Source: a virus. From it: a stretch of 42,038 bases of DNA. Below the pieces are notes generated by a model. The model was not told the origin of the DNA, made no database searches, and saw nothing but the letters and a program-made list of their open reading frames with translations. A program made the position numbers and the translations under genes. The DNA lies in IMG/VR virus record IMGVR_UViG_3300047181_000017, positions 1 to 42,038 of that record. One strand, 5' to 3'. Below, one piece after another: positions 134-14,859 of this stretch; position 1 is the stretch's first letter; each line of letters starts with the position of its first letter.

Positions 134-778
134 ATGGATAGTTTTGGTTGGATATTTCTACATAAATGCATTTTAGAGTGGGAATGGTATAAAGACATAA
201 ATACAAAATGCCTTTTTATCCATTGTCTTTTAAAAGCTAATTATTCAGATAAAGAATGGAAGGGTAAATTAATAAAAAGAGGCCAATTTTTTACATCAAC
301 TGAAAATTTAGCAATTGAATTAAGTTTATCGATTAAGCAAATAAGAACTTCTTTAAAAAAATTAGAAAAAACTAAAGAATTGGGCATACAAGGGGCAAGC
401 AATGGGACAATGATAACAGTCTGTAAATATGAAGATTACCAAAGTATTGATGCAATCAAAGGGCAAGCAGATGGGCAAGCAAAGGGCAAGCAAAGGGCAA
501 GCAAAGGGCAACAACTTAATAAAGAACAAAAAGAAGAAATAAAAACAACTAATATACCCGAATTTTCAGAATTTAAATTTTATGCTTTAGAAAATAAACC
601 TAAAGTTGATTTAACAGACTTGGAATTTAAATATAAATCATGGATTGCGAACGGATGGAAAAATGGGAATAATAAAGAAATTAAAAATTGGAAATCTGCT
701 TTATTAAATACACTCCCATTTATTAAAGAAAATTTGAATGGTCAAAATAAACATGTTGAATCTAAACTAGGATACTAA
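134..778 (+). CDS. Putative replication initiator / helicase loader (DnaD- or lambda O-like)
   Basis: A 214-residue protein. Residues 1-100 look like the winged-helix N-terminal domain of Bacteroidota phage initiators (FGWIFLHKCILEW start; a region rich in helices with LSIKQIRTSLKKLEK near 65-80 as a likely recognition helix). A low-complexity Gly/Gln/Lys linker follows at about 108-128, then a C-terminal region containing WKNGNNKEIKNWKSALLNTLPF, typical of the C-terminal part of DnaD/DnaT-like proteins. In known phages such proteins bind the origin and load the replicative helicase. The next gene, one base downstream, is the primase-helicase, which supports this role. The linker is encoded by 11-bp direct repeats that may be iterons. 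The family assignment is from pattern recognition, so the role is probable rather than certain. Confidence 0.7.
   Translation: MDSFGWIFLHKCILEWEWYKDINTKCLFIHCLLKANYSDKEWKGKLIKRGQFFTSTENLAIELSLSIKQIRTSLKKLEKTKELGIQGASNGTMITVCKYEDYQSIDAIKGQADGQAKGKQRASKGQQLNKEQKEEIKTTNIPEFSEFKFYALENKPKVDLTDLEFKYKSWIANGWKNGNNKEIKNWKSALLNTLPFIKENLNGQNKHVESKLGY
461..514 (+). repeat. 11-bp direct repeats (iteron-like) inside the initiator gene
   Basis: The unit GGGCAAGC begins at 461, 473, 484, 495 and 506 (the last copy is partial). The middle copies have an exact 11-bp period (GGGCAAGCAAA). The repeat encodes the linker of the putative initiator. A period near one helical turn, inside an initiator gene, is the arrangement of iterons in the lambda O gene, so this is a candidate replication origin. 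It could instead be simple linker expansion by slippage. Confidence 0.6.
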
Positions 779-779
779 A

Positions 780-2549
780 ATGAAATACCAAAGCTCAAAC
801 ACCCGTGCAATACTGGAAATAGATTTTACTAGAAAATCTGATATTTGTCCAGAATGTTCAAAAACCAGAAAAAAAGCAAAACTTAAAGCATTGCAATATT
901 ATGCCAAAGAAAACCGGGCGCATTGTTTTCATTGTAATACTACATTTTTTGAGTATAAACCTTACATCAAAGAAAAACAATATACAGTTCCTGAATGGAA
1001 AAATATTACTAAACTTTCTGATAAGGCTGTAAAGTGGTTTACTGGCAGAATGATTTCACAAGATACTTTGGTTAAAATGAGGGTATATTCTGCAATGGAA
1101 TGGATGCCGCAATTTGACAAAAATTTTGAAGTGATTTGTTTCCCTTTTTTCCAGGATGAAAAACTTAAAAATATAAAATATAGGGGTCCTGAAAAATCAT
1201 TTAAATTATTTTCGGGTGCTGAATTAATTTGGTACAATTTCGATGCAATAAAAGCCAATAAGGAAATAATTATTGTTGAAGGTGAAATTGATGCTTTAAC
1301 ATGGATTGAAAATAAATATGATAATGTTATTTCAGTTCCAAATGGTGCTAATAATAACCTGGAATATCTTGAAAGTTCTATTGAATTATTTGAACAGGTT
1401 GAAACTATTTATTTGGGTACTGATGTTGATACCAAAGGAATTGAATTAAAAGACGAATTGATTAGAAGGTTTGGACACGAAAAATGCAAAATATTATCAT
1501 TCAAAGAGTGTAAAGATTCAAACGAATATTTTTGTAAATATGGTGGGATTGAATTTAAAAACCTATTAAACGAATCCAGACAAATTGAAATTAAAGGGGT
1601 AATTGAAATTGATTCTATTTATGAGAAAGCATTAGATTTATACGAAAATGGTATACAATCAGGAAAAAAGATTAATAACCAATCATTAGATGAGTTAATA
1701 ACATGGGAGCTTAGTCGATTAGCTTTATTTTCTGGAAGGCCATCAAGTGGAAAATCTGAATTGGTTGATTATATAGTTTGCAAATTGAATATTCTTTATG
1801 ATTGGAAATCTGCTTTTTTTACACCTGAAAACTACCCTTTAGAATATCATTATGCAAAATTACATGAAAAGTTTTCCGGTAAAAAATTCAATAAAAATTA
1901 TAACGATACAGATTTTGATACCATTTATGACCATATAAGCAGGAATTTTTATTACATCCTGAATGAAGATAATATGACTTTAGACTTTATTTTGGATGCT
2001 GCTAAAATAATGATAAAAAAATATGGTATTAAAATACTGGTAATTGATCCTTATAACGTGGTGGATCATCAATATGATAAAGGAATAAGCGAAACCCAGT
2101 ATATAAGTAAATTTCTTAATAAATTGGTTTTATTCTCACGAACCTACCAAATATTAATCATATTGGTTGCACATCCCAGGATATTACAAAAAGGTGAAAA
2201 GGCAACAATGTATACAATTAGCGGTTCGGCTCACTTCTTTAATAAAGTTGATTATGGGATTATAGTTGATAGGCCAATTGATAATGAAACCGGGGTTATG
2301 GGTAATTTAACCGAAATTTCAATTCACAAGGTAAAATTTAAGCATCTTGGTAAACAAGGGGTATCAAATCTAAACTACAATTATAATAATGGTAGGTATG
2401 AACCAATTGAAGGCGATGTAAATTCATGGGATAATTCTAATTGGCTGGATACAGGACAAAAACAGGAAACAATAAATTTCAATAAAGGAATAGAACCGAA
2501 TTACGATTATTCAAACGATTTTAAAGAAGTTGACGAAATACCATTTTGA
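780..2549 (+). CDS. Bifunctional DNA primase-helicase (T7 gp4/Twinkle-like)
   Basis: A 589-residue replicative primase-helicase. A zinc-binding domain carries CPEC (Cys23, Cys26) and CFHC (Cys49, Cys52). A Toprim domain follows, with VEGEIDALT near 166-174 (catalytic Glu) and GTDVDTKG near 213-220 (Asp-x-Asp). The C-terminal DnaB/RecA-type helicase domain has Walker A GRPSSGKSE near 319-327 and Walker B ILVIDPYN near 419-426. In the family the protein unwinds DNA as a hexamer and makes RNA primers at the fork. It follows the putative initiator by one base, consistent with an initiator-helicase operon. All key motifs are present, so the gene looks active. Confidence 0.93.
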   Translation: MKYQSSNTRAILEIDFTRKSDICPECSKTRKKAKLKALQYYAKENRAHCFHCNTTFFEYKPYIKEKQYTVPEWKNITKLSDKAVKWFTGRMISQDTLVKMRVYSAMEWMPQFDKNFEVICFPFFQDEKLKNIKYRGPEKSFKLFSGAELIWYNFDAIKANKEIIIVEGEIDALTWIENKYDNVISVPNGANNNLEYLESSIELFEQVETIYLGTDVDTKGIELKDELIRRFGHEKCKILSFKECKDSNEYFCKYGGIEFKNLLNESRQIEIKGVIEIDSIYEKALDLYENGIQSGKKINNQSLDELITWELSRLALFSGRPSSGKSELVDYIVCKLNILYDWKSAFFTPENYPLEYHYAKLHEKFSGKKFNKNYNDTDFDTIYDHISRNFYYILNEDNMTLDFILDAAKIMIKKYGIKILVIDPYNVVDHQYDKGISETQYISKFLNKLVLFSRTYQILIILVAHPRILQKGEKATMYTISGSAHFFNKVDYGIIVDRPIDNETGVMGNLTEISIHKVKFKHLGKQGVSNLNYNYNNGRYEPIEGDVNSWDNSNWLDTGQKQETINFNKGIEPNYDYSNDFKEVDEIPF

Positions 2550-2550
2550 T

Positions 2551-2676
2551 ATGAAAAAACTACCAAAATACATCAAAACATTTCCTATTAAGGATATTTT
2601 AAAGGCAACTAAAAGTCTTAAGTATGGTAAGCTGCCAAAAGAAAGTTTTGAACCGTTAAAACCAAAATTAGCATGA
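2551..2676 (+). CDS. Small basic protein, unknown
   Basis: A 41-residue ORF rich in lysine, beginning MKKLPKYIKTFPIKDILK. It starts two bases after the primase-helicase stop and overlaps the resolvase gene by ATGA (2673-2676). This tight coupling is the main support for a real gene. No family is recognised. A 15-bp stretch near its start (2564-2578) recurs at 3130-3144 after the resolvase. Confidence 0.55.
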   Translation: MKKLPKYIKTFPIKDILKATKSLKYGKLPKESFEPLKPKLA

Positions 2677-3122
2677 AATACGAATATATAATCGGTATCG
2701 ATCCAGACGTGGACAAATCAGGTATTGCAATTTACAACACGGGCACAAAACAAATAAAATTATTTAATTTGTCATTTCCTGAATTGATTGAAAAGTTAAC
2801 CGAAGTACAATTGATAGCATGGGACTATATTGTAGTTATTGAAGCCGGATGGCTAAATAGTTCTAATTGGCACTTGCCTACGCCTTGCACCAACAAAATG
2901 GCCGCAAGTATTGGTAATCGCACTGGAAGAAACCACCAGACTGGGATATTATTAGTTGAAATGCTTAAATTCAAAGGCATTAACGTAGTCGAAAAAAAAC
3001 CGATTCAAAAAATTGGGGGCAAAAAAATTAGTGCCGAAATGATTAAAAAAATAATACCTAATTTTACCAACTCATCCAATCAAGAAACCAGGGATGCCGC
3101 AATGATTGCATTTACTTTTTAA
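2673..3122 (+). CDS. RuvC-like Holliday junction resolvase
   Basis: A 149-residue protein of the RNase H fold. It has the RuvC signature GIDPDVDKSG (catalytic Asp10), VVIEAGW (Glu57) and a C-terminal RDAAMIAF helix (Asp141), the pattern of acidic residues that bind the metal ions. In phages such enzymes resolve branched recombination and replication intermediates before packaging. It completes the replication operon. The protein ends seven residues after the last motif, slightly earlier than many relatives, and the cassette array begins about 115 bases downstream, so slight trimming of the C-terminus is possible. Confidence 0.85.
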   Translation: MKYEYIIGIDPDVDKSGIAIYNTGTKQIKLFNLSFPELIEKLTEVQLIAWDYIVVIEAGWLNSSNWHLPTPCTNKMAASIGNRTGRNHQTGILLVEMLKFKGINVVEKKPIQKIGGKKISAEMIKKIIPNFTNSSNQETRDAAMIAFTF

Positions 3123-3237
3123 AACATGACAAAATACATCAAAAATAAATCGGTTTTTATTATGAACATATAAAAATTTTTAGAATCATTGTCAGAAAAT
3201 GAATTAGAAAATCATTTTAAACATATTTAAAAATACT
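3123..3237. other. Non-coding remnant between resolvase and first attC
   Basis: No intact gene is seen. A 15-residue ORF starts at 3127 and shares CAAAATACATCAAAA (3130-3144) with the start of the small gene at 2551 (2564-2578). A further open stretch reads LESLSENELENHFKHI and stops just before the first attC-like site. This could be the decayed gene of a former first cassette, or phage backbone broken by cassette insertion. Confidence 0.4.
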
Positions 3238-3337
3238 TGTATAACGGTTGACTTATAGCCGCATTAAAAGCAAAACTAAACTATAAAATTAAGCGGTGGC
3301 CGTCCGCTTTTATTGACGGCTATAAAATGTTATAAGC
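3238..3337 (+). other. attC-like site 1
   Basis: The inverse core GTATAAC ends at 3245 and the core GTTATAAGC lies at 3329-3337. The inner arms pair: the left arm around 3253-3271 (TATAGCCGCATTAAAAGC) and the right arm around 3305-3326 (GCTTTTATTGACGGCTATA). Extra unpaired bases follow the left core, as in real attC sites. The expected crossover lies between G3329 and T3330. The start codon of the next gene follows at once at 3338. Confidence 0.8.
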
Positions 3338-3634
3338 ATGAAAACTTTACATCTTAATTTACATAAACAATGGTTTGATATGATTCTTTCTGGTTATAAA
3401 AAAGAAGAATATAGACGTAATACAGATTATTATCATTCAAAATTCAATAAAGTCAAAGCATATAATGTCAAAACAATAACATTCTCAAATGGATACGCTA
3501 AAAATAGAAGGCAATTTGTTATTGAAATTTTATACATCTCAATTCGTGAAGGTTTAATGGAATGGGGTGCAGAAAAAGGAGTTGTTTATTATTGCATTCA
3601 TCTTGGTAAAATCATTTCCTCTAATTGCGCTTAA
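3338..3634 (+). CDS. ASCH domain protein (cassette A)
   Basis: A 98-residue protein resembling ASCH-domain proteins of phages: MKTLHLNLHKQWFDMILSG is the typical first strand and helix, followed by KKEEYR, which in the family lines the RNA-binding groove. ASCH domains are PUA-like and are thought to bind RNA; some hydrolyse modified nucleosides. The gene starts directly after the attC1 core, so its translation start lies 8 bases inside the cassette. Its stop codon TAA (3632-3634) is embedded in the inverse core of attC2. Expression probably depends on an upstream promoter. The function in this phage is unknown. Confidence 0.75.
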   Translation: MKTLHLNLHKQWFDMILSGYKKEEYRRNTDYYHSKFNKVKAYNVKTITFSNGYAKNRRQFVIEILYISIREGLMEWGAEKGVVYYCIHLGKIISSNCA

Positions 3635-3770
3635 CGAATAGCGGTTTGCGGCGTTGCTTTTTTTCGCTCGTAAACCGCTAAAAAGTATCAATTTACACAA
3701 AAGTTATAAACAGGTAGAAAGTTGAAAGTACAGAAAAAAAGCAATGAACGCTAAACCGCATGTTATGTGC
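3627..3770 (+). other. attC-like site 2
   Basis: The inverse core is GCGCTTAAC (3627-3635) and the core is GTTATGTGC (3762-3770). The inner arms at about 3637-3657 (ATAGCGGTTTGCGGCGTTGC) and 3741-3761 (GCAATGAACGCTAAACCGCA) are near-complementary with a few mismatches. At 144 bp it is the longest site of the array. The next cassette begins at T3763. Confidence 0.82.
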
Positions 3771-3785
3771 ATTTATCTATTTTTT

Positions 3786-4688
3786 ATGAAAATTGAATTA
3801 AAAGAATTAAATAAACGGCAAAAATGGAATTTAAACCAAAAAATTGACCATAGTCTTGGTGCAATAGAACAATTTTATAATCATTGCGATGGGAAAGTTG
3901 GTGTAAGTTTTTCTGGTGGCAAAGATAGTACCGTTTTATTGCATTTAGTTAGAAAATATTATCCAAATATTGTTGGAGTTCATGCAAATACTGGGCTTGA
4001 ATATCCTGAAATAACAAATTTTGTAAAAAAACAAGAAAATATAGTTTTAGTTAGACCTTTAAAAAGTTATTTTCAAATTGTTAAAGAATTTGGATGGCCG
4101 CTTTTGAGCAAAAATATTTCAAGGCAAGTTTACAGAATGCAAAATAACCCAACCGAAAAACAAATATTACAAGCAAATAGCAAAGGAAGTGATAGAATAC
4201 CTGAAAAATTCATGTGGCTTATAGATAGCGAAATAAAATTAAGTGATAAATGTTGCTTTTACATGAAAGAAGAACCACTTGATAGTTTTTATAGAGAAAA
4301 TAATTTATTCCCAATAATCGGAACAATGGCAGCAGAAAGTAGAAGAAGAGCATTAGCATGGGCTTCTGGTGGTGGGTGTAATATTTTAGAAGGCATAAAT
4401 AAAAAATCAAAACCCTTATCAATTTGGCTTGAAAAAGACATTTGGCAATATATAAAAATGTTTAATATTGAAATTTCCGAAGCATATCAATGGTACAAAA
4501 GAACTGGTTGTATGTATTGTGGTTATGGTATTCATTTAAATAATGGATACAATAAGTTTAATTTATTAAAGAAAACACACCCTAAACATCACAATTTAAT
4601 TATAAATAAAAAAGGACTTGGTTGTATATTGAAAAAGTTGCATCTTCATTATTCTGAAAGTCCGATTGAAATGCAGTCGCTTTTTTGA
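3786..4688 (+). CDS. PP-loop ATPase / PAPS reductase-like protein (cassette B)
   Basis: A 300-residue protein of the adenine nucleotide alpha-hydrolase superfamily. SFSGGKDST at 41-49 is the PP-loop that binds ATP pyrophosphate. CCFYMKEEP near 155 and a GCMYCG motif near 241-246 suggest a metal- or thiol-dependent site, as in phage phosphoadenosine phosphosulfate reductase family proteins. Relatives include sulfate reduction enzymes and DndC-type DNA phosphorothioation proteins; the exact reaction cannot be read from sequence. An in-frame ATG at 3744 lies inside attC2, so the ATG at 3786, after the recombination core, is chosen as the start. The stop lies two bases before the inverse core of attC3. 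Confidence 0.82.
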   Translation: MKIELKELNKRQKWNLNQKIDHSLGAIEQFYNHCDGKVGVSFSGGKDSTVLLHLVRKYYPNIVGVHANTGLEYPEITNFVKKQENIVLVRPLKSYFQIVKEFGWPLLSKNISRQVYRMQNNPTEKQILQANSKGSDRIPEKFMWLIDSEIKLSDKCCFYMKEEPLDSFYRENNLFPIIGTMAAESRRRALAWASGGGCNILEGINKKSKPLSIWLEKDIWQYIKMFNIEISEAYQWYKRTGCMYCGYGIHLNNGYNKFNLLKKTHPKHHNLIINKKGLGCILKKLHLHYSESPIEMQSLF

Positions 4689-4690
4689 TT

Positions 4691-4792
4691 GCACATAACG
4701 GTTTCGCCAGTATGCGTAGGCTGGCTATATGACTACGTATCAAGTTTAACAGCACTATCCGCCAGCTTACGTATGACTGGCTGTTATAGGGC
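4691..4792 (+). other. attC-like site 3
   Basis: The inverse core is GCACATAAC (4691-4699) and the core is GTTATAGGGC (4783-4792). The arms CGCCAGTATGCGTAGGCTGGC-type (4705-4725) and 4761-4782 pair over about 20 bases with few mismatches. Five bases (GGTTT) on the left side have no partner on the right, the asymmetry expected of attC sites. The core reverse complement matches the inverse core that ends the next cassette. Confidence 0.88.
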
Positions 4793-4807
4793 GTTTTATT
4801 AAATAAA

Positions 4808-5005
4808 ATGAAAAGCACAGAAATTAAAGTAATAAAAATAGCAATACGCATACAATGTGAATGCCCACACTGCAATCAAACAATTGGAGTATTGTATGAT
4901 GAATTTATAAATATAGTTGGGCAACCCTGTGATTGGAAATACTCAAAATTTCATTGCACTAAATGCGGAAATGAAATAGAAATAGATAGTGTCGACTGGG
5001 ATTAA
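4808..5005 (+). CDS. Small zinc-ribbon protein (cassette C)
   Basis: A 65-residue protein with CECPHC near residue 16-21 and CTKC near 50-53, which together form a likely four-cysteine zinc ribbon. It is the only gene of the 312-bp cassette and starts 25 bases inside it. The stop ends one base before the inverse-core region of attC4. Zinc ribbons of this size often bind nucleic acids or proteins, but no specific function is recognised. Confidence 0.7.
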   Translation: MKSTEIKVIKIAIRIQCECPHCNQTIGVLYDEFINIVGQPCDWKYSKFHCTKCGNEIEIDSVDWD

Positions 5006-5006
5006 T

Positions 5007-5103
5007 GCCCTATAACGGTTCGTGTATGAGCAGTGGCACTTGTACACACTTTCAAATTAGAAGAAACGCTTGTGTGCCATTGCTTATACACGGTGTTAGC
5101 CAC
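5007..5103 (+). other. attC-like site 4
   Basis: The inverse core is GCCCTATAAC (5007-5016) and the core is GTTAGCCAC (5095-5103). The left arm GTGTATGAGCAGTGGCAC and the right arm GTGCCATTGCTTATACAC are near-perfect complements. The site is almost identical to attC5 through its arms and centre, but the outer cores differ. Confidence 0.88.
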
Positions 5104-5135
5104 AGTTTTTGTATTAATTTTAAAATCATATAATT

Positions 5136-6014
5136 ATGGAATTTACAAAGTATCAACACGTAGAAAGATTAGGAACTACAGAAACAAACGGAATTGAAAT
5201 GGGAATGTGTTATATATTTCCCAAAATTGACGGCACAAACTCTCAACTTTGGTTTGAAAATGGATTGCAAGCTGGTAGCCGTAACCGACATTTAGAAGTT
5301 GAAAATGATAATGCTGGCTTTTATAATTGGGCTTTACAGCAAGAAATGTTTAAATTATTTTTTGATAAATACCCAAACTTGCGATTATTTGGCGAATGGC
5401 TTGTACCACATACTTTGAAAACATACCAAAAAACAGCATGGAATAACTTTTATGTGTTTGACGTAATAGATGGAAAAAACTATTTGCCTTACGAAACATA
5501 CAAAGTAATACTCGATGAATTTGGGATTGAATACATACCGCCAATTTGCAAAGTTGAGAACCCAACTTACGAACGATTAGTAAACCAATTAGAAAAAAAT
5601 GGTTACTTAATTGAAGATGGACAAGGAACCGGCGAAGGTATTGTAATTAAAAACTACAATTACAAAAACAGGTTTGGGCGTGTTGTTTGGGCTAAGATTG
5701 TTAAAAACGAATTTAAGGCAAAACACGCTAAATGCGATGTTACCGAGATTAAAGAGAACAAAATTATTGAAGAAGAAATAGTAAATAAGTTTGTTACAAA
5801 GGCTTTAATTGAAAAGGAACTGGCAAAAATAGAAACTGAAAGCGGTTGGAGCAGCAAACAGATACCACGAATTTTAAATACTGTTTTCTACTGCCTTATA
5901 AAAGAAGAAAGTTGGAACTTTGTTAAGGAGTTTAAAAATCCGACTGTTGATTTTAAACGACTTTCATTCTTTACGATTAACCGCATAAAAGAAGTAATGC
6001 CGCATCTTTTTTAA
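5136..6014 (+). CDS. RNA ligase, T4 Rnl2-like (cassette D)
   Basis: A 292-residue nucleotidyltransferase of the RNA ligase family. Motif I is KIDGTN with Lys30 as the adenylated residue; motif III is RLFGEWLVPH near 83-92, followed by FYVFDVI (IIIa). Motif IV is EGIVIKNY near 168-175 and motif V is VWAKIVK near 183-189. A C-terminal helical region of about 90 residues follows. Members join or repair RNA ends, for example tRNAs cut by host defence nucleases. All motifs are present, so it should be active. It is the single gene of a 1.0-kb cassette between attC4 and attC5. Confidence 0.9.
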   Translation: MEFTKYQHVERLGTTETNGIEMGMCYIFPKIDGTNSQLWFENGLQAGSRNRHLEVENDNAGFYNWALQQEMFKLFFDKYPNLRLFGEWLVPHTLKTYQKTAWNNFYVFDVIDGKNYLPYETYKVILDEFGIEYIPPICKVENPTYERLVNQLEKNGYLIEDGQGTGEGIVIKNYNYKNRFGRVVWAKIVKNEFKAKHAKCDVTEIKENKIIEEEIVNKFVTKALIEKELAKIETESGWSSKQIPRILNTVFYCLIKEESWNFVKEFKNPTVDFKRLSFFTINRIKEVMPHLF

Positions 6015-6017
6015 ATT

Positions 6018-6113
6018 GTGGCTAACGTTTGGTGTATGAGCAGTGGCACTTGTACACACTTTCAAATTAACTACACCGCTTATGTGCCATTGCTTATACA
6101 CGGTGTGTGCGCC
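6018..6113 (+). other. attC-like site 5, with altered right core
   Basis: The inverse core is GTGGCTAAC (6018-6026). The right core region reads GTGTGCGCC (6105-6113), with GTG in place of the expected GTT. The arms and central part are nearly the same as in attC4, including a long stretch around 6033-6068 identical to 5023-5058. The next cassette still ends in a partly matching inverse core (GAGGCATAAC at 6919), so the boundary is kept, but this site may recombine poorly. Confidence 0.8.
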
Positions 6114-6161
6114 TCGTTTATTATTTATTTTACAATTATTCTAAAAATATTTGTCATTTTA

Positions 6162-6193
6162 TTTGCATATTACAATTAATAGTATTATATTTG
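6162..6193 (+). promoter_or_regulatory. Bacteroidota-type promoter inside cassette E
   Basis: The -33 element TTTG lies at 6162-6165, followed by a 20-base spacer and the -7 element TATATTTG at 6186-6193. This is an exact match to the TAnnTTTG consensus. It sits in the non-coding start of the cassette, 46 bases before the first gene, so this cassette carries its own promoter. Confidence 0.75.
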
Positions 6194-6238
6194 TATAACA
6201 ATTGAGAGACAAACCAACTCAATGTAAAACACAAAAAG

Positions 6239-6676
6239 ATGGAAGTAGCAAAAATGATACAAATACTTACAGATTCTAAAGTAAGAATATGTGACTGGAT
6301 GTTTGACACAAACGCAAATACTGACAATGGTTGGAAAATATCTATTCAGGGTAAAAGTGTTATTGACGCAATTACTTTGTATCAAAGACTTAATGGCTTT
6401 TTATTTGCAAACAATGTGCCTTTTAAGATTGCTACCCAAAAAAGAATTAATCTTGAAAATAAGGTTCAAGCTAATAAGGTTATGACCATTTATATTCCTA
6501 ATGGAGTAAACCGTTTTGAATTTGCTGAAACAATATATTCAATGATTATTGATTATAAAGGATGGAATGATATTACACACATTCGCCACGGGCTGAACGG
6601 TTATGAAACTTATGCTGGTGGTATATTCATGAGAAATGATAGAGATGAGTATGGAAACTACATTCCAGCAAACTAA
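6239..6676 (+). CDS. Unknown protein (cassette E, first gene)
   Basis: A 145-residue protein of mixed alpha/beta composition, with no signal peptide or membrane segment. No family is recognised. It follows a good promoter within the cassette and starts at an ATG preceded by an A-rich leader. The middle (KIATQKRINLENKVQANKVM) is basic and the C-terminal third contains an RHGLNGYETYAGG segment. It is followed by a second short gene in the same cassette, which is unusual for integron cassettes. Confidence 0.65.
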   Translation: MEVAKMIQILTDSKVRICDWMFDTNANTDNGWKISIQGKSVIDAITLYQRLNGFLFANNVPFKIATQKRINLENKVQANKVMTIYIPNGVNRFEFAETIYSMIIDYKGWNDITHIRHGLNGYETYAGGIFMRNDRDEYGNYIPAN

Positions 6677-6682
6677 TCGTTC

Positions 6683-6726
6683 AGTAAAAATGAACGTTCA
6701 TTGACAATGAACACTTAAAAATAATG
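6683..6726. repeat. Inverted and direct TGAAC repeats between two cassette genes
   Basis: CGTTCA at 6679-6684 pairs with TGAACG at 6692-6697 and the stretch ATGAACGTTCAT is a perfect palindrome. TGAAC occurs again at 6709 and 6726. The arrangement could be an operator or a small hairpin between the two genes of cassette E. No T-run follows, so it is not a clear terminator. Confidence 0.35.
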
Positions 6727-6927
6727 AACATGAGAATAATTTTAGCAGTATTTAATGATAGGTTTGAAGTATATACAAGCCTTAAACCTTTCTTCGTTAA
6801 ATACCCACAATATTTAAAACTCAAAGAACAAATTAACTATACTATGTCTCGAAAAAAACAGCCTTACGAGCATTCAGATTTCAAGTTACAACGAATGAAT
6901 GTACGAGGCTCTTTAAATGAGGCATAA
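6724..6927 (+). CDS. Small unknown protein (cassette E, second gene)
   Basis: A 67-residue basic protein starting MNMRIILAVFNDRFEVY. No family is recognised. Its stop TAA (6925-6927) lies within the inverse core GAGGCATAAC of attC6, the same arrangement as in other cassettes of the array, which supports it as the true last gene of the cassette. Confidence 0.6.
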   Translation: MNMRIILAVFNDRFEVYTSLKPFFVKYPQYLKLKEQINYTMSRKKQPYEHSDFKLQRMNVRGSLNEA

Positions 6928-7021
6928 CGAAGCGGCTGTATGCAGCGTTTGCAGCCGTTAAAACTTTCAATTTTCGCAATCATTGTCCGCTGCAAATGAT
7001 TGTATACAGCATGTTATAAGC
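6919..7021 (+). other. attC-like site 6
   Basis: The inverse core is GAGGCATAAC (6919-6928) and the core is GTTATAAGC (7013-7021). The left arm GGCTGTATGCAGCGTTTGCAGC and the right arm around 6989-7011 (GCTGCAAATGATTGTATACAGC) pair with interruptions. The next cassette starts at T7014. Confidence 0.85.
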
Positions 7022-7032
7022 ATTTTTTTATC

Positions 7033-7557
7033 ATGGTTATACAAGGACAATTATTTGAAACGGTAGTAAATGAAAAAGATATAGTTTACACGCCTGAACG
7101 TATCGCAAAAGGAATTATTAATTATTTGCAACCTGATGGCACTTGTTTAGACCCGTGCAAAGGTGATGGGGCTTTTTATAAATTCATGCCTAAAAATGCT
7201 GATTATTGCGAAATTAGAGAAAACAAAGATTTTTTTAAATACTCAAAAAAAGTAAATTGGATAATCGGAAACCCGCCTTATTCTATTTTCAAAGAGTTTT
7301 TAGAAAAATCTTTTGAAATTGCCGATAATGTTTCGTTTTTAGTTCCAACAAATAAGATTTTTCAAAGACAAATAATAATGGATATGATTAATAATTATGG
7401 TGGAATTAAAAGCATGATTATTTTCGGTAGCGGTCAATTATTAGATTTTCCATTTGGATTTTCGGTAGGTAATTTTCACTTTCAAAAAAACTTCAAAGGT
7501 GCAAGTGAAACAATTATCGGGATGAAAAACGTTAATCATGTTTTTGATTGCTTATAA
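7033..7557 (+). CDS. Adenine-specific DNA methyltransferase (cassette F)
   Basis: A 174-residue class I SAM-dependent methyltransferase. Motif I is DPCKGDGAF (40-48), which binds SAM, and motif IV is NPPY (80-83), the mark of amino-methyltransferases acting on adenine N6. It is compact and lacks an obvious target recognition domain, as in small phage enzymes that protect phage DNA. An upstream in-frame TTG at 7000 lies inside attC6, so the ATG at 7033 is preferred. The stop TAA (7555-7557) lies within the inverse core of attC7. Confidence 0.85.
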   Translation: MVIQGQLFETVVNEKDIVYTPERIAKGIINYLQPDGTCLDPCKGDGAFYKFMPKNADYCEIRENKDFFKYSKKVNWIIGNPPYSIFKEFLEKSFEIADNVSFLVPTNKIFQRQIIMDMINNYGGIKSMIIFGSGQLLDFPFGFSVGNFHFQKNFKGASETIIGMKNVNHVFDCL

Positions 7558-7683
7558 CGAAAAATTGCAGCCGCCGTTTGTGCGGCTCACAAAAGAAAAT
7601 TGAAAGTAAAATGTTAATGATTAACCACAAATGTAAGTTAATAGCACACCGCACAAATGGTCGGTCTGCAATATGTTATGTGC
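7550..7683 (+). other. attC-like site 7
   Basis: The inverse core is GCTTATAAC (7550-7558) and the core is GTTATGTGC (7675-7683). The left arm ATTGCAGCCGCCGTTTGTGCGG-type (about 7565-7586) pairs with the right arm (about 7651-7673, CCGCACAAATGGTCGGTCTGC). The loop of about 65 bases makes this 134-bp site one of the longer ones. Confidence 0.85.
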
Positions 7684-7717
7684 TTTTTATTTTCATTCGT
7701 CAAAAATCTTAATCAAA

Positions 7718-8173
7718 ATGTTAAAAGGATTAATTTATTCAGATACAAGATTTTGGGAAGTTTTCAATGAAAAAAATGAAAGTTTAGGAATATTCATGTA
7801 CGGTGATTTAATTGAAAATTTTTGTGGTAGCGTTTTAAAAGAAATTTATGAAGATTTAAAAAGAAAAAATTATACTGCGAAAATTATCGGTGATATAATG
7901 CCTTATGAAATTGACAGCGAAAATCCTGTTATTCAAAAAAAGAAACTTGAATTTCGTAAAAGAGAAAGCAAAAAAGACAAAAAACGAGCTTTGAAAAAAG
8001 GTTTTAAATTAGATAGTACGATAAAATTTGGCAAATATTCAGGAACTAAAATAAAAGAATTAATTGATAAATATAAATCGTATTGGCAGTGGCTTTTAAA
8101 TGAAAAGGTACTTTTATTACACCCTGATACGATACAATATTCTATCGAATGTGGTTTTATTCATAGCACATAA
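7718..8173 (+). CDS. DUF3820/exonuclease X C-terminal-like protein (cassette G)
   Basis: A 151-residue protein. The C-terminal part reads FGKYSGTKIKEL (about 105-116) and YWQWLLNEK (about 122-131), which matches the short FGKYKG-x-WL domain found in DUF3820 proteins and at the end of some exonucleases. The middle is very lysine-rich. The N-terminal part is not recognised. The ATG at 7673 lies across the attC7 core, so the ATG at 7718 is preferred. The stop TAA is inside the half site GCACATAAC at 8166-8174. Its function is unknown; a nucleic acid-related role is likely. Confidence 0.6.
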   Translation: MLKGLIYSDTRFWEVFNEKNESLGIFMYGDLIENFCGSVLKEIYEDLKRKNYTAKIIGDIMPYEIDSENPVIQKKKLEFRKRESKKDKKRALKKGFKLDSTIKFGKYSGTKIKELIDKYKSYWQWLLNEKVLLLHPDTIQYSIECGFIHST

Positions 8174-8174
8174 C
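8166..8174 (+). other. attC half site at right edge of cassette array
   Basis: GCACATAAC is the inverse core expected for cassette G, since it is the reverse complement of the GTTATGTGC that opens it at 7675. No matching right arm or GTT core follows in the next 200 bases. The last attC therefore appears truncated, which marks the right edge of the array. Confidence 0.65.
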
Positions 8175-8516: not shown

Positions 8517-8702
8517 ATGAAAAAACAAAGAACTGTTAAAATTGTACAAAATCAAGGTGTACCATTAATAGCTAACAAGTTAAGACCTAATGATAAATGT
8601 CCTTGTAAAAGTGGTAAAAAATTAAAAAACTGCCACAAAATAGAAACTAGATACTATTTTAGTAAAGAGCCAATAAGAAATTACGATAATGTCAGCTCCT
8701 AA
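8517..8702 (+). CDS. Small SEC-C motif protein
   Basis: A 61-residue protein with the zinc-binding SEC-C motif DKCPCKSGKKLKNCH (Cys28, Cys30, Cys39, His40). SEC-C motifs bind one zinc and mediate contacts with proteins, for example SecB in the case of SecA. The start at 8517 is the ATG; an in-frame TTG at 8511 would add two residues. It overlaps the small terminase gene by 14 bases, so it is probably translated with the packaging genes. Its job in the phage is unknown. Confidence 0.7.
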   Translation: MKKQRTVKIVQNQGVPLIANKLRPNDKCPCKSGKKLKNCHKIETRYYFSKEPIRNYDNVSS

Positions 8703-9168
8703 AGGAAATCAGTTTTGGAAATTAAGAAGTAAGCATGGAAGGGATAAACTTTTTGCCACGCCTGAATTACTTTTAGAAGCTGCTTATGAATATTTTGAAT
8801 GGTGTGTTGAACATCCATGGATTAAAACTGAAAGTACCACAGGCATAAATAAAAATGATTGCAAAGAGATACCCACCGAAAGACCTTTTACCTTAACCGG
8901 GTTTTGTCTTTATTGCGATGCAAGTTCAACATATTGGAAAGAATTTAAGTCAAATTGTCAAGAAACTTCAAAAGATTTTTTGCCAGTCATAAATAGAATA
9001 GAAGAAATAATCTACACTCAAAAGTTTGAAGGTGCTGCCGTTGGTGCTTTTAATGCCAATATTATTGCAAGGGATTTGGGATTGAAAGATAGTACCGAAA
9101 CAACCCACAAAGGTAACATGAATATCAATGTTACTCCACTAGAATTTTTTGATACACCAAATGAATAA
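8689..9168 (+). CDS. Terminase small subunit
   Basis: A 159-residue protein placed directly before the large terminase gene, which it overlaps by 8 bases. The sequence MSAPKGNQFWKLRSKHGRDKLF, followed by the helix-rich ELLLEAAYEYFEWC and the FTLTGFCLYCDASSTYWKEF segment, is typical of small terminase proteins of Bacteroidota phages. It should recognise the phage DNA and regulate packaging. Residues 60-90 probably form the helix-turn-helix DNA-binding part. Confidence 0.85.
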   Translation: MSAPKGNQFWKLRSKHGRDKLFATPELLLEAAYEYFEWCVEHPWIKTESTTGINKNDCKEIPTERPFTLTGFCLYCDASSTYWKEFKSNCQETSKDFLPVINRIEEIIYTQKFEGAAVGAFNANIIARDLGLKDSTETTHKGNMNINVTPLEFFDTPNE

Positions 9169-10423
9169 AATAAAGATTAATTCTAAATTAAAGCCTTTAT
9201 TCCAAGAAAAAACAAGATACTACATTATTACAGGTGAAAGAGGTGCATCAAAGTCATTTCCTGTTAATATTTTCCTTACCCTTAAATTACTACAAGCAAA
9301 TCAAGTCGTATTATTTACAAGGTTTACCCTTATTTCTGCCAAAGATTCAATAATACCAGAATTTAAAGAAAAGATTGAATTACTTAATCTTGAAGGTAAA
9401 TTTGAAGTGAATCAACATGATATTATTAATTCTGCCAATGATAGTCATATCATGTTTAGAGGGATTAAAACCAGCCATGGAGATCAGACCGCAAAGCTTA
9501 AATCCTTAACAGGTGTTAATATTTGGGTATTGGATGAAGCTGAAGAATTGACAGACGAGAACACATTCGATAAAATAAACATGTCTGTACGTTCAAAAAC
9601 GTCTAATAACATGGTTATTTTAATCCTTAATCCAGCACCCAAAACACATTGGATTTATAAAAGATATTTCCTAAATAGAGTACCTGAAAACTTTAATGGA
9701 GAAAAAGACGGTATTACATATATTCATATGTCCCTTCCAGACAACGCAATGAATATTGACCCTATTTTAATGGATGAATTAAGAAAGCTAAAAATAGAAA
9801 ATCCTAATGCCTATAAAAAAAGGGTTGCTACTCAATGGATGGATGAAGATAATGCAATAGTTTTCAATTATTCAAAATTAAAATGGTTTGATACTGTTGA
9901 TTTAAAAAATGCTGAAATAGTGGCTTATTGCGATGTTGCAGACCAGGGTAAAGACTTTCTTTGCTTTGTAATTGGTGCAATTATAGGTGAAAATATATTT
10001 ATTATTGATGTTGTTTTTACACAGGATGATTCTGACATTACAGAACCTTTGATTGTATCCAAGTTCTATCAATATGACATTCAAAAGGCTATATTTGAAA
10101 GCAATAATCAAGGATTGCAATTTGTAAAGAATATCAAAAAAGAGTTTAAACGATTGGATTTAGAAAATAAAGAAAGCAGAAATTATGAAAAAAGATTAAT
10201 TGCTTTGCCAAATTCTCAAAATAAACATTCCAGAATAATATTACAACAAAAAAACATATTCGATTCTTTTTATTTTAAGCGGTCAAATGATGAAATGTAT
10301 AATAATTACATTGAGCACTTAACAACTTACACAAAAGATGGTAAATCTGATTTTGATGATGCCCCTGATGCAACCGCTGGTTTATCAAAGAATATTTTCG
10401 GAATGATTAAAAATAAAAAATAA
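9161..10423 (+). CDS. Terminase large subunit
   Basis: A 420-residue packaging motor. The ATPase domain has Walker A GERGASKS (about 25-32) and Walker B IWVLDEAEEL (about 122-131), with the motif III-like ILNPAP near 165. The nuclease domain starts at CDVADQGKDF (about 252-261) and ends with FDDAPDA near 405. It cuts concatemeric DNA and pumps it into the prohead. The ATG at 9161 is preferred to an in-frame TTG at 9149. The PBSX/Terminase_3-like layout is complete. Confidence 0.93.
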   Translation: MNKIKINSKLKPLFQEKTRYYIITGERGASKSFPVNIFLTLKLLQANQVVLFTRFTLISAKDSIIPEFKEKIELLNLEGKFEVNQHDIINSANDSHIMFRGIKTSHGDQTAKLKSLTGVNIWVLDEAEELTDENTFDKINMSVRSKTSNNMVILILNPAPKTHWIYKRYFLNRVPENFNGEKDGITYIHMSLPDNAMNIDPILMDELRKLKIENPNAYKKRVATQWMDEDNAIVFNYSKLKWFDTVDLKNAEIVAYCDVADQGKDFLCFVIGAIIGENIFIIDVVFTQDDSDITEPLIVSKFYQYDIQKAIFESNNQGLQFVKNIKKEFKRLDLENKESRNYEKRLIALPNSQNKHSRIILQQKNIFDSFYFKRSNDEMYNNYIEHLTTYTKDGKSDFDDAPDATAGLSKNIFGMIKNKK

Positions 10424-10456
10424 TTTGCATAATTATAAATAATTTCTATAACTTTG
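10424..10456 (+). promoter_or_regulatory. Promoter upstream of portal gene
   Basis: TTTG at 10424-10427, a 21-base spacer, and TAACTTTG at 10449-10456 match the Bacteroidota consensus. It lies in the 58-base gap between terminase and portal and is a candidate late promoter for the head and tail genes. Confidence 0.72.
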
Positions 10457-10481
10457 TACATTGTTATAGATAAAATTTATA

Positions 10482-11789
10482 ATGTGGCCATTTAAAAAGA
10501 AGTCTATTAATTTTAACGGTGATTTCCAATCAATTCAAAGAACTGCTTTGTTTACAGGCTTTGGATTTGGCGCACGTACTTTCCAAGATTTATATCGAAT
10601 TACACAAAACAATCAGCTTTTAATTTACTATTTTAATAATATTGCAGAGGTTGCAGCTCCGATAATGAAATATTTTGATGGAGCTAGTCAAGTTAAATTT
10701 ACTTGCAATATTCCAGAAGTTGAAAAATTATTGAACAAGCCTAACCATTACCAGAGTTGGGATGACTTCATAAGTTTAGTTATTCTTTACAAAAGACTAT
10801 TAGGCAACTCAATTATAAACGGATTAAACACAATAGACTTAAGAACTGCCCGGTCTGCTCCAAAACAATTATTTGTATTAAGCCCCGAATTTACTTCGAT
10901 CATTGTCGAAAACAATAAAGATTGGAGACTAAATAAAATTAAAGAATACGTTTTCGATAGCTTTGAAGGTGAAAAAGGTGTTTTAAAGATTGAACCAGTT
11001 GGAATACTACATTTAAAAGAATCAAATCCAAACTTTTTACAGAATCAATATCTTTTTGGTGAAAGTCGTTATTGTGGGTGTGCTAAAAATATTGAGTGTA
11101 TTACTTCATCTTATAATACTAAAGCAAGCTTATACGATGGTCCGAATCTCATAATCACAGGTAAACAACAGGGCGAATTTGCCAATGCAAACCAAGGTGA
11201 AAATATAGAAGTTGTACAGGCTGCTATGAAAAAGTATGGCAATAAGCCCGGCCAATTTAAAAACCTGATTACTGATGTTGCTTTAGATGTTTTCAAAGCT
11301 TCGTTTAATGTTGGTGAATTGCAGATTAATGAAAATAATATTGCAGACTTTCAAAGATTGTGTGATGCTCAAAACATAGATTCAAAGGTGTTTTCTGATA
11401 GCAAAAGTTCTACTTATAACAATAAAAAGGAAGCTTTAAAAGACTTCTACAATAATGGTTTTAAGTCTGAAATTGACTCAACTTTTGCCGATATAGAAAA
11501 ATGGTTACAGATTTGGTGGCCTAACTTAGAATTTAAACCGGATTATTCTGGTATTTCAGCTATTCAGGAAGCTAATATTGAAAATAATGTGAGACTTTTA
11601 GAAGATTGTAAGCTTGGATTAATTACAAGAAATGAATATAACCTATTAACCGGGCGTGATGAGGTGCAAGAACCTGAATTTAACGAATATCGTGTTTTTG
11701 TGCCTAATTCGGGTTGGATATTAAGCGGTGAAACGAATAATAATAATAATAATGGAGACACTGGACAAAATAATAGTAGCTTCCAATGA
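10482..11789 (+). CDS. Portal protein
   Basis: A 435-residue protein with features of HK97-type portals: a short basic start (MWPFKKKSINF), the core LIYYFNNIAEVAAPIMKYF, the ANQGENIEVVQAAMKK segment, and the C-terminal ITRNEYNLLTGRDEVQEPEF clip/stem-like part. It ends in an Asn-rich tail encoded by an AAT repeat (11736-11753). The portal forms the dodecameric ring through which DNA enters and to which the neck attaches. Its position between terminase and prohead protease fits. Confidence 0.9.
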   Translation: MWPFKKKSINFNGDFQSIQRTALFTGFGFGARTFQDLYRITQNNQLLIYYFNNIAEVAAPIMKYFDGASQVKFTCNIPEVEKLLNKPNHYQSWDDFISLVILYKRLLGNSIINGLNTIDLRTARSAPKQLFVLSPEFTSIIVENNKDWRLNKIKEYVFDSFEGEKGVLKIEPVGILHLKESNPNFLQNQYLFGESRYCGCAKNIECITSSYNTKASLYDGPNLIITGKQQGEFANANQGENIEVVQAAMKKYGNKPGQFKNLITDVALDVFKASFNVGELQINENNIADFQRLCDAQNIDSKVFSDSKSSTYNNKKEALKDFYNNGFKSEIDSTFADIEKWLQIWWPNLEFKPDYSGISAIQEANIENNVRLLEDCKLGLITRNEYNLLTGRDEVQEPEFNEYRVFVPNSGWILSGETNNNNNNGDTGQNNSSFQ

Positions 11790-11925
11790 AGAAATTGATA
11801 GTATTAAGCTTCTTATTTTGGGGCTTGAAAAAAAACATGATAAAAATAATCATGATTACAAAATGATGGAAACTGCTAAAGATAAACTTAAAGCATTAAA
11901 TGAAAAAGAAATCGTGATTAAATGA
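11752..11925 (+). CDS. Small helical protein between portal and protease
   Basis: A 57-residue protein, probably one or two helices (EEIDSIKLLILGLEKKHDK), with no recognised domain. The ATG at 11752 is preferred to an upstream in-frame GTG at 11728. It overlaps the end of the portal gene by 38 bases and the protease start by ATGA (11922-11925). Its location suggests a head assembly role, but this is inferred from position only. Confidence 0.6.
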   Translation: METLDKIIVASNEEIDSIKLLILGLEKKHDKNNHDYKMMETAKDKLKALNEKEIVIK

Positions 11926-12743
11926 AAATAACTATTTCAGATATAAATAAAATGGATTTTGATAAAAGAATCGATTTCTTAGCCTCAAACAAAGATGAGG
12001 TTTTGAAAATGAAACGTTCTATTATCAAAATTTCTGATGTGTTTGAAATGCCGAAAACTGCAAATAAAGCGCAAAATATACAGCCTGTTATTGAGAATGA
12101 AGTTGATAAATTGCATGTAAAAGTAGTAGCTAATACTGCTTTATGGATTGATTCACAGCTTGATATGCTTTTACCTGATTGTTGGAAAAAATCAATCACT
12201 GAGCGTATGGATATGATACCCCACTTACATGATCATATTCGGCAAATTGATGCTAAAGTTGGCGAAGTAAAAAATATTTATGGTCAATATTTAACCTATT
12301 CAGAATTAGGAATACCGGGCATAGGACAGACACAGGCTTTAATTTTTGAAACTGAAATACTCAAAGAATATAATGAAATGGTATTCAATCAGTATAAATC
12401 AGGCAAAATAAACCAGCATTCAATAAGTTTACAATATGTTTCTTTGCAAATTGCTATAAACGACAAAAAACAGGAAAAAGAATATACCCTATGGAATCAA
12501 TACCTGCCAATGGCAATAAATCAAAAATCAGCTATTGAATCAGGTTATTTCTTTATTGTAAAAGAATGTAAAATAATTGAAAATAGTTGCGTGTTATTCG
12601 GTGCAAATGAGATAACGCCAACATTACAAGTTATTGAAGTATCAAATAGTAGTGAAGATTTGCCGCAAAAAGATGCACAAATCATTAATATACCTGAGCC
12701 GACTAAGTCACTCAATTACGATTATTTATTAAGTAAAATTTAA
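11922..12743 (+). CDS. Prohead protease (HK97 gp4 / peptidase U35-like)
   Basis: A 273-residue protein with the layout of HK97-type prohead proteases. It has ALWIDSQLDMLLPDCWKKSI, then HLHDH (101-105, catalytic His likely 103), INQHSISLQY with the likely catalytic Ser167, and VKECKIIENSCVLFGAN (about 213-229), matching the E-x-S-x-V strand before the end of the domain. In the family it cleaves the capsid delta domain and scaffold during maturation. It lies between portal and major capsid protein, as usual. The first 60 residues are less typical. Confidence 0.82.
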   Translation: MKITISDINKMDFDKRIDFLASNKDEVLKMKRSIIKISDVFEMPKTANKAQNIQPVIENEVDKLHVKVVANTALWIDSQLDMLLPDCWKKSITERMDMIPHLHDHIRQIDAKVGEVKNIYGQYLTYSELGIPGIGQTQALIFETEILKEYNEMVFNQYKSGKINQHSISLQYVSLQIAINDKKQEKEYTLWNQYLPMAINQKSAIESGYFFIVKECKIIENSCVLFGANEITPTLQVIEVSNSSEDLPQKDAQIINIPEPTKSLNYDYLLSKI

Positions 12744-12754
12744 CAATTAAAAAA

Positions 12755-14185
12755 ATGAAAAGAAGTAAAAGAATATTATCGTTTTTATTCCTAGCTGTAA
12801 TGGGTACTATGTTCGCCCTTGCAATTGGGATTATGCCAATTTTTGGCCTTGCATTAGGATTTGTATCTTATTTGCCTGTCACATTCCCTTCTGGAATACT
12901 TGGTGAAAATGCAATCGGACAAACAGAATTAGAAGCTGAAAATAGGATTCTAGCGAAGTTAGAAGATAAGATTAAAAAAGCATTATCGGAATACAATACA
13001 GATCGTATTAATGCAAATGGATTACAATTGCGATTAGCTCCAATAGAAAAAAAATTAGCTGAATTGGCTGAAAATGGAGTAAATAAAGATGCAATTAGTA
13101 AATTTCAAGAATCATTTGATGCTTTAAGTTTGGAAGTTAGCTCAATCAAAGAATTGAGGGATAACCCAATCGATAACACTTCAAAAGAATTTCGTTTAGC
13201 AGTTGCAAAAGCAGCAGAGGAAGTTAAGACCAGACGTGAGGGATTTGTAGGCGTTAAAACGCTTAGTTCAATGACATTCTTGGACAATGTTACCGGACAA
13301 ATTCCACAGGCAAACAGAGAACCCGGAATTACTGGATTAGTTAGGCAACAGTTTACCGTTCGTAATGGTGCTAATGTATTCGGGATAGCTGGTAATTATG
13401 CCGAATGGGTAGAGCAAAGAAATATTACAGGTGCAGCAAGTGCAACCGCTGAAGGTGCAGCTAAGCCCCAAATTGAGTGGGATTATGTAGTAAGTGGGAC
13501 TAAGGTTGAAAAAATACCTGCTTACATCAAGATTTCAAATGAAATGCTTAGTGATGTTGATGGAATGATGAACGAAATCAATAGTAACTTAGCTTATCAA
13601 GTTGAATTAGCTGAAGAAGGTTATTTATTCACAGGTACCGGAACAACTCCACAAATATGCGGCTTAGATAAATACGATACTGAAATTGATTTAGCAGGTT
13701 TGGCAGGTTCTGTTTTACATCCTAACAAAATTGATGTTATTCTGGCTGCAATGGCACAAATGAGAGTAAACGGAAAAGGAGAATTAAAACCAAACCGGAT
13801 CTTCATGAATCCTTTGGATGTTTTCAAAATGGTTGCAGATACTAAAGATTCAACATTGAACTATGTTCAAACTAATTGGATTCAAGTAATTGCAAACCCC
13901 AACCCAGGAGGATTACCTTCAATGTATATTATGGGTGTGCCCGTTGTTGAATCTGATAATGTTGCCGCTGGTTATTTCTATGTTTGTGATATGACCAAGT
14001 TCAATATCAGGGATAAACAAGCAATTACCATTGAAATTGGATACGATTCAGACGACTTTACTAAAAACATGGTAACAATTCGAGCTGAAAAAAGGCTTGC
14101 CACTTATGTAAAAGCAAACCATACCGAAGCTATCATAAAAGATACTTTTGCAAATGCTTTGACTTTCTTAGAGACTGGTAGCTAA
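12755..14185 (+). CDS. Major capsid protein, HK97 fold, with hydrophobic N-terminus
   Basis: A 476-residue protein. Residues about 55-130 are a coiled-coil delta domain (ENRILAKLEDKIKKALSEY and later heptads). From about 175 the HK97 capsid domain follows (VKTLSSMTFLDNVTG, VEKIPAYIKISNEMLSD, LFTGTGTTPQICGL). The E-loop and A-domain regions appear complete. Unusually, the first 45 residues are strongly hydrophobic after a basic start (MKRSKRILSFLFLAVMG), like a membrane or signal segment. It would normally be removed with the delta domain by the upstream protease. Later in-frame ATGs near codons 16 and 18 are less likely starts. Confidence 0.9.
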   Translation: MKRSKRILSFLFLAVMGTMFALAIGIMPIFGLALGFVSYLPVTFPSGILGENAIGQTELEAENRILAKLEDKIKKALSEYNTDRINANGLQLRLAPIEKKLAELAENGVNKDAISKFQESFDALSLEVSSIKELRDNPIDNTSKEFRLAVAKAAEEVKTRREGFVGVKTLSSMTFLDNVTGQIPQANREPGITGLVRQQFTVRNGANVFGIAGNYAEWVEQRNITGAASATAEGAAKPQIEWDYVVSGTKVEKIPAYIKISNEMLSDVDGMMNEINSNLAYQVELAEEGYLFTGTGTTPQICGLDKYDTEIDLAGLAGSVLHPNKIDVILAAMAQMRVNGKGELKPNRIFMNPLDVFKMVADTKDSTLNYVQTNWIQVIANPNPGGLPSMYIMGVPVVESDNVAAGYFYVCDMTKFNIRDKQAITIEIGYDSDDFTKNMVTIRAEKRLATYVKANHTEAIIKDTFANALTFLETGS

Positions 14186-14250: not shown

Positions 14251-14859
14251 ATGACTACAATAAAACAATATACGGTTAACATAGGGAATTATGATTCAAT
14301 TCGTAAGGATATACCATGTATAACCAATATTGATTTATTCAAGTCTAATCCAAGGAATAGCAGACTGCCCAAGATATTAAGTCATAAGTACATTAAAGCT
14401 GACATTTCGGTTTATTGGGATGCAAACCATTTCTTAAAACCCGAATTAGATTTTGAGAAAACAATCTTAGAAACTATTGAAGATTATGATATAGTTGCTC
14501 AAAAATGCTCAATTGGCAGAGATTGCGTTTATCAAGAAATTGAAGCAGCAAAAACAAGGGTATCAAGCCATGAAGAAATAGAATTATTGACAAAACAGGC
14601 TGAATATTATAAATCAATTGGATTTCCTGAACATTGCAAAACATTGGCAGGATATCAACCTTTAATAAGACGGCATAATAAGATAATTAAGGAATTTAAT
14701 GAGGCTTGGTGGGCTGAAATATGCCGATATTCTTATAGAGACCAATGCAGTTTCCCAGTTATTTTATCACAATTTCCAGAAATTAAAGTTAAATGGGTAA
14801 ATGATTTTACTCAGATAGTTTATAGAACACAAAGACATAAGATTAAAAGCTTAATTTAA
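14251..14859 (+). CDS. DUF616/TOD1-MUCI70-like glycosyltransferase
   Basis: A 202-residue protein resembling the DUF616 (TOD1/MUCI70) glycosyltransferase family. It shows the first strand motif VNIGNYDSI (10-17), RLPKILSHKYI, the acceptor/metal site region VYWDANHF (54-61, analogous to DxN/DGN), RDCVYQE (90-96) and the WWAEICRYSYRDQCSF segment near 153-168. The family transfers sugars using a GT-A fold. It lies directly after the major capsid gene and overlaps the next glycosyltransferase gene by TAATG. A role in decorating capsid proteins or in altering host glycans is inference. Confidence 0.75.
   Translation: MTTIKQYTVNIGNYDSIRKDIPCITNIDLFKSNPRNSRLPKILSHKYIKADISVYWDANHFLKPELDFEKTILETIEDYDIVAQKCSIGRDCVYQEIEAAKTRVSSHEEIELLTKQAEYYKSIGFPEHCKTLAGYQPLIRRHNKIIKEFNEAWWAEICRYSYRDQCSFPVILSQFPEIKVKWVNDFTQIVYRTQRHKIKSLI

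Follow-up and report, generated by a model that had tools for sequence, protein, structure and literature searches.

We analysed a 42,038-nt stretch of viral DNA (IMGVR_UViG_3300047181_000017, positions 1-42,038; hereafter the window), which is a contig of a Bacteroidota phage, and looked at the genes separated by attC-like hairpins at about 3236-8174. This region is probably an integron-type array of a phage that has no integrase of its own, with cassettes that are inverted and are moved in trans by a tyrosine recombinase of the host, RcR. Four observations directly support this reading: the hairpins form a family (R1), the cassettes end in repeats specific to each gene, their polarity is inverted compared with that of chromosomal cassettes, and the family is linked to RcR and to an attI-like site.

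The initial annotation had described seven imperfect palindromes between the cassettes, and all seven were located on the + strand, between 3236 and 7684. A first, looser hairpin scan, in which real sites were indistinguishable from chance, was replaced by an energy-based one, which looks for AAC...GTT edges with a paired stem and compares them with ten Markov-shuffled windows. Stem energies ranged from -17.8 to -26.4 kcal/mol in six of the seven hairpins, against a best value of -15.3 in the shuffled windows and -13.2 in the rest of the window. The AAC and GTT cores proposed earlier are present in six hairpins but not in that at 6017-6114, where the 3' core is GTGTGCG; this hairpin was picked up by a covariance model. 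The model, R1, was built from 42 hairpins of phage contigs, which have in common a 17-pair stem with one nearly invariant G.U pair (36/39) and one nearly invariant U-A pair. Their covariation score was 0.687 versus 0.168 after shuffling (0/500 as high), and slid versions of the alignment reached at most 0.14. On the window, R1 retrieved the seven hairpins and no others, with E values from 7e-16 to 2e-5; five of the seven were part of its training set, those at 3626-3771 and 7549-7684 being excluded from it. In order, the hairpins are found at 3236-3338 (40 bits, its left core without a matching opener upstream), 3626-3771 (52 bits), 4690-4792 (60 bits, with an extra G in the right arm), 5007-5104 (87 bits), 6017-6114 (76 bits, GTT changed to GTG), 6919-7022 (42 bits) and 7549-7684 (36 bits, with two extra bases in the right arm). 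A 27-nt core sequence of the fourth is present exactly in nine other viral contigs, which show the same unit structure. The window thus has what is expected of integron cassettes, imperfect hairpins with AAC and GTT cores between genes, with one of the seven 3' cores mutated. It may also be a CALIN (cluster of attC sites lacking an integron-integrase; at least two attC sites with no integrase near): it contains seven R1 sites and no tyrosine recombinase of the PF00589 family. The absence of an IntI-type recombinase from the window, already noticed in the annotation, is thereby borne out; there is no intI gene as in a classical integron, and PF00589 is also absent from seven other array-bearing viral records. 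No Rfam match was obtained inside the array.

Seven cassettes in a single direction had been announced, and we indeed found seven units with every gene on the + strand, for a total of eight open reading frames (ORFs), two of them in unit 5. Each mobile unit consists of a hairpin followed by a gene (C-hairpin-GTT-gene-AA on the + strand). Cores were compared over 10 bp, namely GTT plus seven bases. In five of the seven units, the opening core (for example GTTATGTGCA), once reverse-complemented, is identical to the core that closes that unit (TGCACATAAC), as in integron cassettes, whose first bases are complementary to the closing core. Outside the array, only 0.26% of GTT 10-mers are followed, within 1.1 kb, by their exact reverse complement. 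The exceptions are unit 1, which matches poorly, and unit 5, whose core is changed. Such a match between the two cores would be expected of a unit that had once been circular and, judging from sequence, these gene-specific repeats are the mark of integron cassettes able to circularise. The cassette encoding an RNA ligase is common to three otherwise different phage contigs: its product is 94-96% identical in amino acids to those of cassettes in the two others (L005 and L006), and DNA homology ends at the cassette borders. One could propose that the hairpins serve in transcription termination or RNA processing, and that ordinary phage recombination at these repeats shuffles the genes. The hairpins are intergenic and would be transcribed, and homologous recombination is possible at similar sites such as 5013-5129 and 6023-6139, which are 82% identical. 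However, this leaves unexplained the gene-specific repeats at the unit ends and the strict AAC/GTT edges. Moreover, the RNA ligase cassettes are 90-93% identical in DNA yet flanked by quite different hairpins, and the same hairpins are anchored in chromosomes to a recombinase and an attI-like site (see below). We regard this explanation as highly improbable.

The polarity of the hairpins had been missed. Extra bases on one side, as in attC sites, had been pointed out and are present, but they lie in the right arm of the + strand (sites 1, 2, 3, 6 and 7), that is, in the arm adjoining the downstream gene. According to the published rule, which the attC site of phage TJE1 follows, the extra G lies in L'', the left arm of the gene-sense strand; in the window, the extrahelical bases are not in L'' and the gene does not read into the attC site. 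Folding of the bottom strand had been suggested as a check, but the + (coding) strand folds better in nearly all sites. Finally, and this also had escaped notice, the array begins with a hairpin and finishes with a lone core without hairpin, at 8165-8174 (GCACATAAC on the + strand, GTTATGTGCT on the minus strand, to which it is assigned as an attI-like array end), and therefore reads as an array of the minus strand. From the arm with the extra bases, the better folding of the + strand and the array ends, it follows that the attC "bottom strand" is here the coding strand and that the genes are inverted with respect to a normal cassette. Single-unit insertions in other phages have the same order, hairpin-gene-lone core. 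This order, hairpin-gene-core, is that of phages, whereas chromosomal cassettes are ordered core-gene-attC. Counting sequences, not independent events, in dozens of contigs, the gene was on the R1 strand in 154 of the 155 scorable phage units versus 9 of the 135 chromosomal units (Fisher p 5e-70). The first phage sample gave 50/50 (46 plus four in L131). The second, made of viral loci picked solely by methyltransferase similarity, gave 104/105, the exception being a 51-amino-acid ORF. In chromosomes, 4/83 genes (79 opposite) were on the R1 strand in the first sample, from which L131 was excluded, and 5/52 (47 opposite) in the second. L131 was rejected as a chromosomal locus, its genes being those of a phage contig.

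R1 matched 147 of 296 Bacteroidota genomes, with sites frequently clustered. A 22-mer of a window hairpin was found in host DNA in only two contigs, both phage-derived in appearance, which had suggested a phage-only hairpin; this idea was ruled out as the R1 family is common in chromosomes. A 21-mer of a chromosomal-type hairpin was found in one viral contig, at its very end, a match of no informative value. Chromosomal R1 arrays adjoin RcR, a tyrosine recombinase of about 350-390 amino acids without the IntI-specific insert but with an extra N-terminal stretch and, as in IntI, an SPFDDL-like C-terminal end. RcR forms a clade separate from IntI and Xer. Relatives of RcR were present in 93/296 Bacteroidota genomes, 82 of which were R1-positive (p 1e-20). 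R1 sites lay within about 8 kb at 17 of the 20 RcR loci nearest by similarity rank, and R1 matched the RcR arrays with E values down to 4e-17. At 18 of the 20 loci, a lone GTT attI-like core lies 67-127 bp after the RcR gene (usually 104-106), preceded by a left flank of consensus CCTATAAACGA; this core matches the one that closes the first cassette. By their sequence, these loci read as complete integrons of normal polarity, in which integrase and cassettes share one direction. The window phage, by comparison, has an R1 array but no RcR, and its array end is weakly attI-like at most. R1 sites are those of a Bacteroidota family linked to a recombinase other than IntI. Of the initial reading, the integrase-less cassette array in a phage stands, but its sites are not standard IntI-type attC sites. 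A more divergent recombinase (375-394 amino acids) also adjoins R1 sites, and one genome has 26 tyrosine recombinase matches, several near-identical (loci L160 and L159, G207:C1); these are possible further subtypes. In one chromosomal R1 array (L121), identical IS110-family transposase genes occur at 2191-3497 and 14687-15991, each directly after an attC-like hairpin with an odd 3' core (GTTTACAATT), as if inserted into attC.

The most ordinary alternative is a phage CALIN in which standard attC cassettes from a host integron, with normal polarity, are moved by classical IntI. Phage CALINs with IntI1-active attC sites have been published and classical IntI is present in 89/296 Bacteroidota genomes. 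Nonetheless, 39 of these 89 were R1-positive when 44 were expected, which is chance, and R1 sites were found near IntI at only 1 of 14 loci. Classical IntI was rejected as the mover on these grounds. The extra bases are also in the wrong arm with respect to the L'' rule and TJE1, and the array ends are reversed compared with a normal array. Furthermore, cassette proteins gave 32 phage-phage pairs and, in the samples compared, no phage-chromosome match. Altogether, we consider this alternative improbable. The last result suggests that, in this sample, phage and chromosomal cassettes form separate pools, as seen from their sequences. Cargo was also compared. Among 49 phage cassette proteins were about 15 DNA methyltransferases (five families), four RNA ligases, two PAPS-reductase-like proteins and one TET-associated glycosyltransferase, while 78 chromosomal cassette proteins represented mixed cargo, with Shedu, AIPR, GmrSD and a MutH-type restriction enzyme among others. 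To describe chromosomal arrays as defence islands would be too strong, since several defence genes are present but the cargo is mixed. The L121 array, of the RcR type, is defence-rich, two Shedu genes being found near a MutH-type restriction enzyme and an AIPR gene. On the phage side, in one viral contig of 169,658 bp (IMGVR_UViG_3300043411_001575, loci L217, L222, L223 and L247), long R1 arrays include at least four cassettes for methyltransferases. The viral records L203 and L204 (38.5 and 38.0 kb) also have long R1 arrays; as their IMG/VR numbers are unlike metagenome ones, they may be prophages of isolates that could be used in laboratory work.

Terminal lone cores of phages were then compared with host attI. 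They are more attI-like than random GTT sites (Mann-Whitney p 1e-6): about half score within the highest 1.3% of background sites, and one (L054) is a full attI match with palindrome (13.4 bits). This bears on the idea of a separate phage mobile element, derived from or convergent with integron cassettes and moved by its own unrecognised recombinase. The hairpin is always 5' of the gene, many terminal cores are unlike attI and, at the threshold used, 65 R1-positive genomes are without RcR. Yet the R1 model also matches the chromosomal RcR arrays, and terminal phage cores resemble host attI in about half of the cases; we give this idea very little credit.

RcR was not found in viral contigs, in a scan that reached close relatives only, so the recombinase that moves phage cassettes most likely comes from the host. 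Phages likely keep their own inverted cassette pool, on which host RcR would act in trans. During infection of a host with an RcR integron, host-made RcR would bind the folded + (coding) strand at the hairpins and excise cassettes as circles. The circles would then enter either the attI-like lone core or another hairpin, whether of that phage or of one infecting the same cell. Given that genes and hairpins are opposed in phage cassettes, it is the coding strand that would recombine, and this strand is the lagging-strand template if phage replication runs with transcription. In the V. cholerae integron, excision rises strongly when the lagging-strand template carries the attC bottom strand (PMC11023631); by analogy, phage cassettes would be more mobile than chromosomal ones while gene expression is kept. 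Captured phage cassettes would be silent in a host array and host cassettes antisense in a phage array, and the two gene pools would then stay apart. Broadening this, we lean, with some reserve, towards a second class of Bacteroidota integron with an insert-less recombinase, on whose machinery phages run a separate inverted pool, the orientation rule separating the pools and placing the recombining strand on the coding strand.

Several points weigh against the proposal of a phage array moved by host RcR. The 65 R1-positive genomes without RcR may be incomplete metagenome-assembled genomes or may use another recombinase. The scan of viral contigs for RcR had a limited reach. The core of unit 5 is mutated and part of the array may therefore be fixed, and the flank of the window array end (gtatatagaaat) is weakly attI-like, in the top 5% of random GTT sites. 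No close relative of the window phage was found that would allow gains and losses to be compared at this locus: a primase query for an empty site retrieved distant phages alone (55-61% amino acid identity, L002-L004), and a terminase query for relatives retrieved none. The lagging-strand argument depends on phage replication running with transcription. Cassette recombination is proposed here from sequence.

Within the window, cassette 1 (ORF at 3338-3634) encodes a 98-amino-acid protein of phrog_625 with weak ASCH similarity. Cassette 2 (3744-4688, the true start being probably within the unit, after about 3765) encodes a PAPS-reductase-like protein (PF01507), for which no relatives were found in IMG/VR by a pattern method. 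Cassette 3 (4808-5005) encodes a zinc-ribbon-like protein of 65 amino acids and cassette 4 (5136-6014) the RNA ligase (PF09414, phrog_548). Cassette 5 contains an ORF of 145 amino acids without family (6239-6676), with a Bacteroidota-type promoter-like sequence, TATATTTG, directly upstream, and another of 67 amino acids (6724-6927). Cassette 6 (7000-7557, starting at 7000 or 7033) encodes a DNA methyltransferase-like protein (phrog_799, weak N6_Mtase), and cassette 7 (7673-8173, the start being probably after 7684) a protein of 166 amino acids with a weak ExoX-like C-terminal domain. As initially stated, the array sits between replication and packaging genes. By phage gene annotation, a DnaD-like loader, a primase-helicase and a Holliday junction resolvase are on the left (134-3122, + strand), and the small and large terminase subunits, portal and major head protein are on the right (8689-14185, + strand). 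A glycosyltransferase-like gene (14251-14859) is present amid the head genes. In a distant relative of the window phage (L015:742-5061), an RNA ligase gene without R1 site is found about 2 kb upstream of the primase gene; in the window phage it is downstream of the primase, in a cassette.

Phage CALINs are already known (Qi et al. 2023, PMC9892861), for example in Polaribacter phage P12002L, and like the window they combine attC-like sites and cassettes with no integrase. In P12002L, we found R1-family sites with methyltransferase genes and the same inverted layout. In the available part of that study, standard attC models were used and IntI1 was tested, as opposed to the R1 family here; divergent attC directions are noted in P12002L (PMC9892861), and neither a systematic inversion of genes with respect to sites nor a Bacteroidota recombinase was found reported there. 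Chromosomal RcR loci resemble classical integrons (V. cholerae, class 1) in their inverse-complement cores, folded attC sites, attI beside the integrase and array order. They differ in that RcR is without the IntI-specific insert, belongs to its own clade and is oriented like the cassettes, its 3' end being followed by attI. In addition, classical attC sites have obligate extrahelical bases, whereas in R1 hairpins a G.U wobble is conserved and extra bases are optional. In the accessible part of Smyshlyaev et al. 2021 on integron-like tyrosine recombinases (PMC8138268), no link to Bacteroidota cassette arrays was found. The known part is therefore the phage CALIN; the inversion rule, the R1/RcR integron of Bacteroidota and the attI-like phage ends were not found in the open-access, peer-reviewed literature searched and appear new, although their novelty is not certain.

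These results suggest that phages would use a host recombinase to trade ready-made genes through a hairpin system widespread in Bacteroidota. The genes traded are mostly for DNA modification and RNA repair, which fits counter-defence. Polarity is strictly inverted from host to phage, a clear rule that can be tested and for which no explanation was found in the same literature. The host side, for its part, looks like a type of integron with an integrase missing the very insert considered essential for integrons to function, a point relevant to the origin of integrons.

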